Source: a virus
Direction: 5' to 3' (one strand)
DNA: 26,591 nucleotides
Virus record (IMG/VR): IMGVR_UViG_3300042549_001975
Location: 1 to 26,591 of that record
Shown here: piece after piece, positions 9,241 to 13,113 of the stretch
How the letters are laid out: each line of letters opens with the position of its first letter
Position numbering within the stretch: position 1 is the first letter of the stretch
Translations under genes and position numbers: made by a program
The notes under the pieces: generated by a model
Seen by the model: only the letters and a program-made list of their open reading frames with translations
What the model was told of the DNA's origin: nothing
Database searches by the model: none

Positions 9241-9295
9241 GGAGGGGAGGGGGGTACAACAATATTGACCGCCGATGCCGACCCCCTCCCCCCCC
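9241..9295. repeat. G-tract/C-tract inverted repeat upstream of terminase
   Basis: The plus strand reads G-rich at 9241-9255 (GGAGGGGAGGGGGGT) and complementary C-rich at 9281-9295. They can pair over about 11 bp with a single-base bulge around a 25-nt loop. The G-rich arm could instead form a G-quadruplex. Position just before the small terminase gene is compatible with a packaging-site or regulatory element, but that is inference. Confidence 0.55.
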
Positions 9296-9320
9296 GTCAA
9301 AAAGTCCAAAATCCTAGGGT

Positions 9321-9486
9321 TTTCCCGATTCTGCTTCGCACAACGTCCATTATGTAAAGTCGATCCTAAGTTATGCACAGAAAAAGTAATACCAAGTGCA
9401 ACAGCGCAGAGTTATGCACCGCCAACTGTGTATAAGTTTTGGATTGGGGCTGTGGATAACTGGGGTCGGCTGGGGAAATCGGGAAA
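9321..9486. repeat. 10-bp inverted repeat bracketing the left DnaA-box cluster
   Basis: TTTCCCGATT at 9321-9330 and its exact complement AATCGGGAAA at 9477-9486. All four left-hand DnaA-box-like sites fall between the arms. Confidence 0.6.
9371..9459. promoter_or_regulatory. Left DnaA-box cluster (4 sites)
   Basis: Sites matching TTATNCACA: TTATGCACA at 9371-9379 (plus), TTATGCACC at 9412-9420 (plus, one mismatch), TTATACACA at 9427-9435 (minus) and TTATCCACA at 9451-9459 (minus). Three perfect boxes and one near match in 89 bp is far above chance. Host DnaA would be the expected ligand; a role in initiation or in titrating DnaA is inference. Confidence 0.75.
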
Positions 9487-9647
9487 GAAAAGAGAGAAAG
9501 GGGCGGGTGGACCTTTTCCCGGGTACCTGCACCACCATAGCCAATCCCAATCACCATGCCAAACCGATAGCATTTACCAATAAATACTTTTATAAGAACC
9601 CAGAACCCAACCACCAGTCAATGCCTTGCCAAGGGCTTTAAACGGGC

Positions 9648-9893
9648 CTACAAGGCTTCGTCAGTTGCTGCCTGTGGGATGACAAGCACAATGCCTTCTC
9701 GTGGCGTATCGGGCCGTAATCCCAAGTTGTAGAAAAGTCTGTACGTATCAATGATCTCAAGGAAGCCAGCAGACATATCACCATCACCAGCAGCGAGGAG
9801 TGTTTCCCGTTCTGCTGGCCCGAGCTTTCGCTGGAAGTGTTTGACATTGGGGTCTGCTGGTCTGCCCAATCCATAAACGCCCATTTGAATCAC
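9648..9893 (-). CDS. Small conserved phage protein within origin region
   Basis: An 81-aa soluble protein with G-V-Y-G-L-G-R-P-A-D-P-N-V-K-H-F near the N-terminus, then L-L-A-A-G-D-G-D-M-S-A-G-F-L-E-I-I-D-T-Y and L-G-L-R-P-D-T-P. I recall similar short proteins from uncultured phages, without a function. The start is either GTG at 9893 or ATG at 9884 (three codons in); neither has a strong ribosome binding site. It lies between the two DnaA-box clusters, in the same direction as the primase/helicase upstream. That placement makes a replication or copy-control role attractive but unproven. Confidence 0.65.
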   Translation of the reverse strand: MIQMGVYGLGRPADPNVKHFQRKLGPAERETLLAAGDGDMSAGFLEIIDTYRLFYNLGLRPDTPREGIVLVIPQAATDEAL

Positions 9894-10004
9894 CGTCTTT
9901 CAAAAAAAGTAGGCGACCAAGAAAGTCACCACATTAAAAAGTTATCCACAGGCTAAGTCCAAAAAACTCAGCAACCCCAAAAACCCCTGCAACGCCTTGA
10001 CCCT

Positions 10005-10033
10005 TGACCCCAACCCTAAAGGGTTGGGGGTCA
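10005..10033. repeat. Strong hairpin within iteron array
   Basis: TGACCCCAACCC pairs with GGGTTGGGGGTCA across a TAAA loop: a 12-bp, mostly G-C stem with one bulged G. There is no T-tract on either strand, so it is not a typical intrinsic terminator. It could be a structured single-strand initiation or priming site. Confidence 0.65.
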
Positions 10034-10086
10034 GGGAGGGTCAACTTTGGCGCTGTTTTGCCCATTTTTGACCCTGACCCTGACTT

Positions 10087-10100
10087 TGACCCTAGGGTCA
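10087..10100. repeat. Perfect 14-bp palindrome TGACCCTAGGGTCA
   Basis: Two iteron copies head to head. This is a likely binding site for a dimeric protein, either as an operator or for copy control of the origin. Confidence 0.65.
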
Positions 10101-10133
10101 TTTAGGGTCAACCTTTTAAAAGTTATCCACAGG

Positions 10134-12149
10134 TTATCCACAGTTGCTTTTCCGCATCATCATGCTACTGGCATTGACCTCATCCGTCATGATCCACCCA
10201 TGTTCCGTGTTTTGGATCATGTCAGCCTGGAGTAATGCGCCGATCAATTTGTCGTTATAGGACGGGTTGATCATGTTGCGCACGGTGCGCTCGGCGTTAC
10301 CGTCTTGGGCCAGTTTGTCCTTGAGGGCTGATCGACTGAGGTAGGGCAGGTCATCCCTGACCTCGGCGCCGGATGCCCACCAAGCGTTTTCCCAAGTCTT
10401 GCGGTGACCGTCGATCTTGGAGTCTTTCTTGGTGGGTGCGGCTGGGGCTTCGGCTTGGGTGGTGATGGCGCTAGTGACGGGTTGGTTGTCCTCGTCGTAC
10501 CAGCCTGGGATAGTGACTTGCTGGAGGTTGAGGTGGATTGGCTCGGCCATTTCGGCGTCTTTGGACTTGCGCTGGACCAATTGCATGGGCTGGTTGTCTT
10601 TGCCTGGGATGACGCTGATCTCGATGTCGAGAGCGCCGCGCCATGCGGATGAGCCTCGGGCGCGGTGTTGGGCCTCGTCTGAGACGCCGGTGTGGTGAAC
10701 CAAGATGACGGTGCAGTTGAACTCCATCATCAGGTTGCCGCAGGCGTCCAGCATGGTCTTGGCGTCTTGGGCGCTGTTCTCGTCTCCGGCAAGGAAACGG
10801 TGTAGGGTATCAACCACGATCACCTTGGGGGTCTCGGGTAGTATTCGGATGTGCTCGACGACTTTGAGGTAGCCAGCGGGGGTGTTCAGGTCGCAGCCGT
10901 GCTTGGATAGCCACATGTTGAGCTTGCCTGACTGATGGTGGTGCTTCCAAGCGGCGATTCGGCCTTTGAGGCCGTGGTGGCCCTCACCAGCCAGGTAGAC
11001 CACATGGCCGGGGCGAACTTTGTTGCCGCACCAGTCGGTGGTGCTGCTGGCAATGCGCAGGCACCAGTCGAGCACCACGAATGTCTTACCGCCACCGGAG
11101 GGGCCGTGGACCATGACAAGGGCTTGGTCCTGAATCCAGCGCTTGACCAACCATGAGATGGGGCTGGGTTGGGCTGAGAACTCGTCGGCGGGGATGAGCC
11201 AATCATCATGTGTTGGGGCAAGAAGGCTGGCTAAGTCGTTGCCAGACTTCACATAATCGTTGGCATCGCCTTGGACTGGTGGAACCACTGTGCGTGCGCC
11301 GTACTTGGCACTGGCCTGCTCGGCGTAGCGTTGGCCAACACCAGAGGCGTCATTGTCGGCGACGATCACGATTTCTTGGGTTGGGCCGTGCATCTCGCGC
11401 AGCTTGCCTGTGACGGGGACAAGGTTGCTGGCGCTGTAGGCCACGATCACAGGGCGATTGGTGATCTCGTGGATGGTTGCAGCGGTGGCAAAGCCTTCGG
11501 CCACATAAAGCGGCCCAAGCTCATCCAGTGAGCCTAGCTGCCAGAACTTACCGCCAGTTTGCCCGCCGGGATGATAGAGCTTGCCACCATCGTGTGCAAT
11601 GTACTGGAGGGTGCTTAAGCTGCCGTCCTGATCGTACAAAGGCACCATCAGGCGACCATCACCCGTAATGCGTGCGCCATGCACGCCAATGCCCTTGTTG
11701 GACAGGTAGGGGTGCTCTGGGCTGGCCGGGTTTGCTGTGGCCCAAATTTGCTCAACTGTCTCGCTGGCAACTTGGTGCTGGCGAATGATCTCTGCATCTC
11801 GCACGGCTTTGGACTCGGCGAGGCGCTTGACATGCACCATTTCTTCAGTGTGCGTGAGCTTGCGGCCAACGTCTGCCCTGAAAGTGGCCTCGATGCCTGC
11901 CCTCCAGCAGCCGAATCGGCCCGCTGGGATGCCATCACCAAACACCAAATACCAACCCGGCTTGTCAATGCCGGGCTTGCCTTTTGTGCCAGATTTAAAG
12001 CGATGAATCTTGCCGTCCATATCAATGTGATCTGGTGGCTCAAGGCCAGCGGCGCGGATGGCATCAATTAGCTGGGCTTCAGGGGATGCAACCAGTTTTT
12101 CTGGGGATGGCGACCAAGGGCCGCCAAGGATGTTTGAGAGGTCAGCCAT
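10134..12149 (-). CDS. Primase/helicase: TOPRIM domain plus RepA-type AAA ATPase
   Basis: A 671-aa replication protein. Its N-terminal half (about 30-310) is primase-like. A TOPRIM fold is marked by V-A-E-G-F-A-T-A (E218) and I-V-I-V-A-D-N-D (D265, D267). The C-terminal half is a RecA-fold helicase of the RepA/AAA_25 type, with Walker A G-P-S-G-G-G-K-T (349-356), Walker B V-I-V-V-D (443-447) and V-H-H-T-G (484-488). The remaining C-terminus may be a DNA-binding tail. It should unwind and prime DNA at the fork. The ATG at 12149 has AAGG 7 nt upstream and overlaps the HTH regulator by 8 nt. Its stop codon lies inside a DnaA box of the putative origin. I see no zinc-binding motif of the DnaG/T7 gp4 kind. 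Confidence 0.92.
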   Translation of the reverse strand: MADLSNILGGPWSPSPEKLVASPEAQLIDAIRAAGLEPPDHIDMDGKIHRFKSGTKGKPGIDKPGWYLVFGDGIPAGRFGCWRAGIEATFRADVGRKLTHTEEMVHVKRLAESKAVRDAEIIRQHQVASETVEQIWATANPASPEHPYLSNKGIGVHGARITGDGRLMVPLYDQDGSLSTLQYIAHDGGKLYHPGGQTGGKFWQLGSLDELGPLYVAEGFATAATIHEITNRPVIVAYSASNLVPVTGKLREMHGPTQEIVIVADNDASGVGQRYAEQASAKYGARTVVPPVQGDANDYVKSGNDLASLLAPTHDDWLIPADEFSAQPSPISWLVKRWIQDQALVMVHGPSGGGKTFVVLDWCLRIASSTTDWCGNKVRPGHVVYLAGEGHHGLKGRIAAWKHHHQSGKLNMWLSKHGCDLNTPAGYLKVVEHIRILPETPKVIVVDTLHRFLAGDENSAQDAKTMLDACGNLMMEFNCTVILVHHTGVSDEAQHRARGSSAWRGALDIEISVIPGKDNQPMQLVQRKSKDAEMAEPIHLNLQQVTIPGWYDEDNQPVTSAITTQAEAPAAPTKKDSKIDGHRKTWENAWWASGAEVRDDLPYLSRSALKDKLAQDGNAERTVRNMINPSYNDKLIGALLQADMIQNTEHGWIMTDEVNASSMMMRKSNCG

Positions 12150-12327
12150 GAGTTACCTTCCGGCTCTCTAAATAGTCCGACAAAGCCTGCAAGACCTTGT
12201 GCGTTGGGTTGGCGCTAGGGTTGTCACGCACTTGCCGAATGGTGTTGTAGTGCAGGCCTGTGGCCTCTGCCACCCTAATGGGCATTCGGTCTGAAAGTGC
12301 TTGGCGTATTTGTTCGAGCGTCATCAT
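12142..12327 (-). CDS. Small HTH DNA-binding protein (Cro/XRE-like)
   Basis: A 61-aa protein consisting almost entirely of a helix-turn-helix: L-E-Q-I-R-Q-A-L, then I-R-V-A-E-A-T-G-L-H-Y-N-T-I-R-Q-V-R-D-N-P, then a C-terminal helix V-L-Q-A-L-S-D-Y-L-E. The V-A-x-x-T-G-L-x-x-x-T-I-R run is the recognition-helix pattern of XRE/Cro-type regulators. I chose ATG 12327 (with a second ATG at 12324) because AAGGA lies 7 nt upstream. A longer frame to 12420 would run across the promoter region. It is the first gene leftward from the divergent promoters, so it likely represses one or both of them. Confidence 0.82.
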   Translation of the reverse strand: MMTLEQIRQALSDRMPIRVAEATGLHYNTIRQVRDNPSANPTHKVLQALSDYLESRKVTHG

Positions 12328-12353: not shown

Positions 12354-12381
12354 TTGTGATGTGCGAATCATACGCTACAAT
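12354..12381 (+). promoter_or_regulatory. Candidate early rightward promoter
   Basis: TTGTGA at 12354-12359 and TACAAT at 12376-12381 with a 16-bp spacer, leading to the 12436 start with a leader of about 45 nt. The match is moderate and not unique; it overlaps the leftward candidate. Confidence 0.5.
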
Positions 12382-12396
12382 ATTGCTACACCACAA
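12367..12396 (-). promoter_or_regulatory. Candidate leftward promoter for HTH and primase genes
   Basis: On the minus strand, TATGAT (12372-12367) with TTGTGG (12396-12391) 18 bp upstream. The -10 is a good match but the -35 is weak. It overlaps the rightward promoter, so the two cannot easily be occupied together. Confidence 0.4.
12374..12390. promoter_or_regulatory. Candidate operator in divergent region
   Basis: GCTACA is repeated at 12374-12379 and 12385-12390, 11 bp apart on the same face of the helix. The palindrome CAATATTG lies at 12378-12385 between them. The site covers the -10 of the rightward promoter, the expected place for a repressor such as the adjacent HTH protein to act. 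Confidence 0.45.
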
Positions 12397-12435
12397 ACAG
12401 ATTCCCTGACAGTGGTGCAAAAGAAGGAGAGCCAG

Positions 12436-13113
12436 ATGGCTATCAATTTGAAATTGACTGGCGGTTTAACCGCCAATGGGGTGAAGTTGCTTGTCTACGG
12501 GCAAGCTGGTGCAGGCAAGACCACTTTGGTCAAGACGCTGCCCAATGTGATCGTATTGTCTGCCGAGGGTGGTTTGTTGTCCATTCAGGACGCTGACCTG
12601 CCTTACATCGAGATCACCAGCATGGACGATCTGCGCGAGGCTTTCACATGGTGCAGAGACAGCAAGGAGGCATCGGGCTTTGAGTCTGTGGCGCTTGACT
12701 CAATCAGCGAGGTGGCAGAGGTGGTGCTGGCCCATGAGATGAAGAAGTCCAAGGACGGGCGTGCAGCTTATGGTGAGATGAATACCACCATGCAAGAGCT
12801 GATTCGGGCCTTTCGTGATTTGCCGGGCAAGCATGTCTACATGAGCGCCAAGCTGGAGAAATCCACCGATGAGATGGGCAAGATGCTTTATAACCCCGGC
12901 ATGCCAGGCAAGAGCTTGACGCAAGGTTTGCCGTACTTCTTTGATGAGGTGTTGGCCCTGCGTGTTGAGCGTGATGCCGAGGGCGTGACCCAGCGAGCGC
13001 TGATGTGCGACAGCGATGGCCTGTGGCTGGCCAAAGATCGCTCGGGCAAGCTGGAGGCTTGGGAAGCACCAGACCTTGGTGCAATCATTGCCAAGATTGG
13101 GGGCAAGTCATGA
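12436..13113 (+). CDS. Sak4-like RecA-fold ATPase (AAA_24), recombination
   Basis: A 225-aa ATPase with Walker A G-Q-A-G-A-G-K-T at residues 22-29, a Walker B-like V-A-L-D-S at 85-89, and V-Y-M-S-A-K-L-E-K motifs further on. This is the layout of the phage nucleotide-binding family AAA_24. It includes Sak4 proteins, which bind single-stranded DNA and promote annealing or strand invasion. Its neighbours (DUF669 ssDNA-binding protein, Cas4-like nuclease) form the expected recombination set. I chose ATG 12436 because AAGGAGA lies 6 nt before it. An in-frame ATG at 12361 lies inside the promoter and has no RBS. It is the first gene of the early operon. Confidence 0.85.
   Translation: MAINLKLTGGLTANGVKLLVYGQAGAGKTTLVKTLPNVIVLSAEGGLLSIQDADLPYIEITSMDDLREAFTWCRDSKEASGFESVALDSISEVAEVVLAHEMKKSKDGRAAYGEMNTTMQELIRAFRDLPGKHVYMSAKLEKSTDEMGKMLYNPGMPGKSLTQGLPYFFDEVLALRVERDAEGVTQRALMCDSDGLWLAKDRSGKLEAWEAPDLGAIIAKIGGKS

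Follow-up and report, generated by a model that had tools for sequence, protein, structure and literature searches.

Organization of the probable replication origin locus

The window, that is, the whole stretch of DNA analysed here, is 26,591 bp long and is identical with the viral record, and tests at the whole-genome level were possible on relatives only. It encodes a P22-like portal protein, a terminase and a divergent replication-recombination operon with a Sak4-like annealing protein, a DUF669 single-strand-binding protein, a Cas4-type exonuclease, a ResIII helicase and a VRR nuclease; a tRNA scan of the window detected none. Features of the region around the primase-helicase gene are collected in Table 1. 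The small 81-aa ORF gave no family match, and a similar counterpart (GRPAD...FQRKLG...) is seen in clade B.

Inspection of the region behind the primase-helicase gene confirmed the elements that the earlier note had described from the letters of this DNA. The three TTATCCACA DnaA boxes that it claimed are present, all on the plus strand, at 9942, 10123 and 10134, and the 16-bp segment AAAAGTTATCCACAGG is repeated exactly at 9937-9952 and 10118-10133. The last two boxes are 11 bp apart as stated, and the final one contains the TTA at 10134-10136 where the primase-helicase ORF (10134-12149, minus strand) stops. Eight iterons had been counted, and TTGACCCT indeed occurs in five exact and three one-mismatch copies in 9997-10111. 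When counted by the TGACCC core, the iterons number nine, five on the plus strand (9998, 10005, 10069, 10075 and 10087) and four on the minus strand (10028, 10038, 10095 and 10105).

Neither kind of repeat is expected by chance. The window was simulated 1000 times with a first-order Markov model: no simulation put more than 4 copies of TGACCC into 115 bp, where the real cluster holds 9, and none had three boxes within 210 bp. The suspected enrichment of the box motif also held against shuffled sequence, because TTATNCACA was found 6 times on both strands where 0.49 were expected, and 0 of 100 shuffles reached 6. All six are confined to 9371-10142, where they form two clusters. The second of these is located ~500-800 bp past the primase stop codon, between the 81-aa ORF and terS, and is also found in clade A and B relatives.

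Table 1. Coordinates of features at and around the candidate origin (positions in the window)
Feature	Position	Strand	Description
Second DnaA-box cluster	9371..9459		Boxes at 9371 (+), 9427 (-) and 9451 (-), near-match at 9412; overlooked in the earlier note
81-aa ORF	9648..9893	-	Between both DnaA-box clusters
Candidate unwinding region	9897..9946		50-bp segment of lowest stability within 450 bp past the stop codon; adjoins the distal box; putative
Distal DnaA box TTATCCACA	9942..9950	+	Within the 16-bp repeat 9937-9952; ~181 bp from the proximal pair, kept in relatives
Central dyad / potential stem-loop	9989..10058	-	Inverted iterons, inner stem CAACCC/GGGTTG, loop TTTA
Iteron array	9998..10110		Nine TGACCC/GGGTCA cores; other hexamers replace the array in other clades
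Spacer motif GGGCAAAACAGCGCC	10049..10063	-	Between iteron groups; GGGGCAAAA-type motif seen in other clades too
Proximal DnaA box 1	10123..10131	+	Within the 16-bp repeat 10118-10133
Proximal DnaA box 2	10134..10142	+	11 bp from box 1; contains the primase-helicase stop codon
Initiator-primase-helicase, 671 aa	10134..12149	-	Toprim_3 214-302, AAA_25 RepA-like helicase 320-490, C-terminal winged helix 574-671
Residues 619-636	10242..10295	-	Predicted recognition helix and following loop; residue changes coincide most with iteron changes
Small HTH regulator	12142..12327	-	Overlaps the start of the primase-helicase
Sak4-like ATPase / ssDNA annealing protein	12361..13113	+	Opens the divergent replication-recombination operon

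For the helicase domain of the 671-aa protein, RSF1010 RepA was the best structural match (Z 18.4), and the primase part resembles the T7 gp4 primase (Z 17.3). AlphaFold models the C-terminal domain as a winged helix (pLDDT about 90). Its structural neighbours are winged-helix proteins, matched weakly (Foldseek E > 0.05, Z about 7), and the P4 origin-binding domain was absent among the matches listed for this model, which is evidence neither way.

Conservation of the layout among relatives

Using the primase-helicase, we fetched 80 relatives, later more than 200, and 11 contigs from binned genomes; nearly all are metagenome contigs, and many of them are fragments. Hexamer classes were assigned by counting, and an array was scored where a hexamer had at least 5 copies in the 220 nt behind the primase-helicase gene. 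A lineage-specific hexamer array was found just downstream of the TOPRIM and RepA-type primase-helicase in 151 of 208 relatives versus 4 of 355 control segments, and it is usually folded around a stem-loop; the remaining 57 of the 208 had no array behind the gene by this 5-copy test. A 25-nt origin core was found in 48 contigs, once per contig, and was adjacent to the primase end wherever the contig was long enough. A subgroup contained in L140-L158 and L167-L172 encodes another type of C-terminal domain (ending in ..ENGWIVI) and lacks a hexamer array behind the gene, and the origin must therefore be elsewhere in these genomes. A scan with L101 found no relative.

The inner stem of the stem-loop varies by lineage yet remains self-complementary, the short loop often reads CTTTAG, and the mean best-stem score was 8.3 versus 5.2 in shuffles. 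Pairing of the iteron part alone proves no hairpin, because the iterons of both arms change together, and stronger evidence for one comes from the variable inner stem.

The arrangement of the DnaA boxes differs between clades. Within the window's clade their positions relative to the stop codon are kept, with spacings of 11 and 181 bp, and the clade with GGTAAC iterons has the same layout with the boxes in opposite orientation. One box is found in the AGGGGG-iteron clade. Clade B (e.g. L031, L041 and L054) retains the iterons and has several boxes in an oriC-like arrangement ~500-700 bp away, and none beside the iterons; in a clade that retains TGACCC iterons, a DnaA cluster was located ~600-870 bp downstream. 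The layout is also present in four named phages, with the hexamers GGGACA (CGphi29 and MW202867), GGTTCA (XX1924) and GGTACA (1N2-2); among them only MW202867 has DnaA boxes at the array. In total, 133 exact boxes were found within 300 bp of 204 primase stop codons, distributed over 59 loci, whereas two control patterns gave 2 matches. Their spacings are 11-12 bp and mostly 177-191 bp, and the least stable DNA was most often located at the distal box (within about 20 bp in 32 of 55 cases).

As the iteron and stem-loop origin exists without boxes in CGphi29, XX1924 and 1N2-2, the DnaA boxes appear to be a lineage-specific addition (59 of 204 relatives) and no core part of the system. Where boxes occur, their pattern would be hard to explain without DnaA binding, and recruitment of DnaA is likely.

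Iteron sequence covaries with the C-terminal tail of the primase-helicase

We determined which part of the protein follows the iteron sequence by sliding protein windows over 115 dereplicated loci. Only the ~70 C-terminal residues of the primase-helicase follow the hexamer, and the other 560 do not: distances between protein windows and distances between repeat spectra gave a partial rank correlation of ~0 up to residue 560 and of 0.36 at residues 601-660. In accordance with that, identity at residues ~600-660 was 31-60% between iteron classes and 80-96% within them, while most of the remaining protein showed about 65-98% identity between classes. The contrast is sharpest for L056 and L045, which are identical at residues 1-560 and differ in 59% of residues 597-660, with GGTAAC iterons in the former and AGGGGG in the latter, indicating that tail and array were exchanged as a cassette.

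Smaller steps were also observed. In a nested group, replacement of Q625 by V in a domain that is otherwise little altered accompanies the change from GGTAAC to GGGAAC (18 of 18 and 9 of 9 loci), and V625 is found with GGGAAC again in the distant L207. Q625 always occurs with GTA in the hexamer, and I625 occurs with CGCAAC. A tree built from residues 1-560 had 39 changes of iteron class and 29 of residue 625, but only 43 of the pair, so that most changes at residue 625 coincide with iteron changes. Per-column coincidence averaged 0.51 over residues 1-560 and 0.72 over residues 600-645, with the best columns at 619-636. In the AlphaFold models, the covarying segment maps in and just after the recognition helix. 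A family-wide one-residue code was rejected, since N625 pairs with many hexamers, which leaves Q, V, I, M and L as the informative residues. With no more than 5 pairs, a test on phylogenetically independent pairs could not attain the 0.05 level.

The covariation between tail and iterons, which is absent from the earlier note, is in our judgement the strongest evidence for function, and it suggests that the primase-helicase itself most likely reads the iterons. Comparison of the loci further shows the winged helix, the iterons and the framing boxes as a unit that has apparently been swapped between phages as one cassette.

The element as a probable replication origin

A repeat array adjoining an initiator gene and DnaA boxes beside iterons, the marks of an iteron-type theta origin, are both present. 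The earlier note had seen no phage DNA polymerase gene in the window, and the same was true of the relatives: a DNA polymerase of family A, B or C, ParA and a tyrosine integrase were found in none of those searched (19 to 23 records, two of which, G004 and G015, have direct terminal repeats). Because no such polymerase was found, the phage probably uses host Pol III.

The proposal of a GC-skew switch at the element was upheld in part. The cumulative skew of the window has its minimum at 10206, about 2 kb from the gene-direction switch. The window's subclade and three long contigs of clade A show a skew switch at the element, whereas clades B, C and D lack it; the opposite skew extreme of full-length relatives follows at a distance of only ~10 kb. 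GC skew was therefore treated as weak proof of an origin.

Taken together, these data make it very probable that the phage starts its replication at this element. We hold with good confidence the fuller reading, in which 9937-10142 is the origin of a polymerase-less phage, the upstream primase-helicase binds the iterons, host DnaA assists and the cassette is exchanged. The C-terminal winged helix, for which covariation was observed, would bind the iterons that lie immediately behind the stop codon of its gene. Once the protein is bound to the inverted iterons and the stem-loop, its RepA-type helicase ring and TOPRIM primase may be placed on the melted strands, and host Pol III would take over extension from there. 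Host DnaA, occupying the tandem boxes at one end and the single box ~181 bp away, would help to bend and open the DNA and to recruit host factors, as at P1 and other iteron-plasmid origins. The earlier proposal of a plasmid-like origin beside a RepA-type primase-helicase thus stands as to the layout and the match to RSF1010 RepA (Z 18.4), and needs qualification as to the DnaA boxes, which lie outside the core.

Alternative explanations

The boxes might instead form a regulatory or DnaA-titration site, either a datA-like sink or a means of DnaA-controlled transcription of the adjacent genes, outside the initiation machinery. This is consistent with the second box cluster (9371-9459) upstream of terS, with clade B, where boxes are found at the place of the second cluster only, and with the existence of box-free iteron origins. 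However, framing of the iterons by boxes at fixed distances (11-12 and ~181 bp), in either orientation, is seen in the window's clade as well as in that with GGTAAC iterons, the distal box is most often adjoined by the least stable DNA, and three to six boxes would sequester little DnaA, so that we regard this explanation as unlikely. Far less probable is a cosB- or pac-like packaging site read by the small terminase, whose gene is ~1 kb off in the window. In lambda, too, a winged-helix small terminase recognises short repeats, those that make up cosB, and the window shares with many relatives a downstream position of terS. Nevertheless, the repeats track the tail of the primase-helicase. The small terminases of L063 and L052 are 74% identical while their iterons differ and their primase tails are only 45% identical, and in XX1924 the array is still behind the primase although terS is more than 5 kb away. 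An equally slim chance is left to the hairpin being a transcription terminator of the primase-helicase with incidental repeats. Its place just downstream of the gene would suit a terminator, but a scan of the window showed the central hairpin without a trailing T-run on the primase strand, a better terminator-like site lies beyond the array at 9930-9912, and the hexamer copies, whether direct or inverted, change together with the DNA-reading domain of the protein. Both the packaging-site and the terminator readings were rejected as the main explanation.

A different question is whether the origin allows the phage to persist as a DnaA-dependent plasmid prophage, as the earlier note had raised. 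The layout is like that of P1 oriR and iteron plasmids, a small HTH regulator lies upstream of the gene, and the relative CGphi29 forms turbid plaques and was described as possibly temperate (PMC6518143). Against this, no tyrosine integrase and no ParA were found in 23 relatives (PF13614 being the sole partition family searched), and 72,556 plasmid records contained no close relative and no record with the full protein, only partial matches at low identity, none covering more than 65% of it. Only 11 matches, all MAG-derived and with untrustworthy host labels, were obtained among 84,980 species genomes. Plasmid persistence was therefore not borne out, and we consider it very unlikely.

Comparison with known replication systems

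The helicase of P4 alpha is of the SF3 type, whereas that of the present protein is an AAA_25 helicase with a RecA fold, similar to RSF1010 RepA and DnaB, and hence lies outside the P4 alpha family. In P4 alpha, one polypeptide carries primase and helicase, and its C-terminal winged helix recognises short repeats of the origin (PMC4234260). The present protein likewise joins primase and helicase in one chain with a C-terminal winged helix, for which the covariation suggests origin binding; unlike in P4, the array is directly 3' of the gene and around a stem-loop, with DnaA boxes framing it in some clades. The Sulfolobus plasmid pRN1 and phage BIP-1 have, immediately after the replication gene, a stem-loop that is the origin or putative origin and that keeps its fold although it varies in sequence; the protein ends in a winged helix and has a primase of the archaeo-eukaryotic type and an SF3 helicase, and no iterons were recognised (PMC4234260). 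The large stem-loop directly 3' of the replication gene, the fold kept while its sequence varies and the winged-helix end are shared with our system, which differs in having neither an archaeo-eukaryotic primase nor an SF3 helicase and in its clear iterons covarying with the protein.

Covariation of a DNA-binding domain with an iteron origin, and exchange of such modules, have been demonstrated experimentally for the RepA_N and ori modules of PLE satellites and for Odn of phage ICP1 (PMC8263062). The same covariation and modular exchange are seen here. PLE, however, is a satellite in which few variants and a RepA_N domain are found, whereas the present system comprises about 20 hexamer classes and a winged helix within a phage primase-helicase. 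P1 oriR and other DnaA-using iteron plasmids combine iterons with tandem DnaA boxes, and so does the present origin. The initiator RepA of P1 lacks helicase activity, whereas here initiator, primase and helicase are in one chain; partition genes were not found. As in RSF1010, the helicase is RepA-like, and helicase, priming and, as predicted here, iteron binding are self-encoded, but RSF1010 uses three proteins (RepA, RepB' and RepC), and the single protein here has a T7 gp4-like primase instead of RepB'. By descent of the catalytic domains, the system belongs to none of P4 alpha, pRN1/BIP-1, PLE and P1. No earlier description of this origin family was found in the literature searched, which largely left out subscription journals, and a prior description is possible.

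These results name, from sequence alone, a likely origin and its likely reader for a large group of polymerase-less uncultured aquatic phages. They also provide a natural series of paired winged helices and hexamers in about 20 classes, some of them one residue and one base apart, from which recognition rules can be read and tested. A more speculative idea, which we put forward tentatively, is that these phages form 'replicon types' comparable to plasmid incompatibility groups, the cassette being swapped or mutated repeatedly under selection against co-infecting relatives, satellites or origin-directed nucleases, with helix and hexamer as a readable specificity code. If this is true, co-infecting relatives, satellites or nucleases would be unable to use or attack the origin. 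Replication incompatibility types in lytic-type phages become testable in this way, as does the role of host DnaA as an optional helper added lineage by lineage.

Other features of the neighbourhood

In some clades (L049, L056, L073 and L044), a gene with a ParB-like nuclease domain was located ~450-900 nt behind the primase stop codon; it looks like the type often fused to DNA methyltransferases, not like a partition gene. Just upstream of terS in the window, at ~9243-9298, there is a long inverted repeat of a G-run and a C-run (GGAGGGGAGGGGGGTAC ... GACCCCCTCCCCCCCC). This type of repeat was conserved in the relatives inspected (L009, L016, L023, L027, L062, L033 and L055), and it is possibly involved in packaging or serves as a late promoter.
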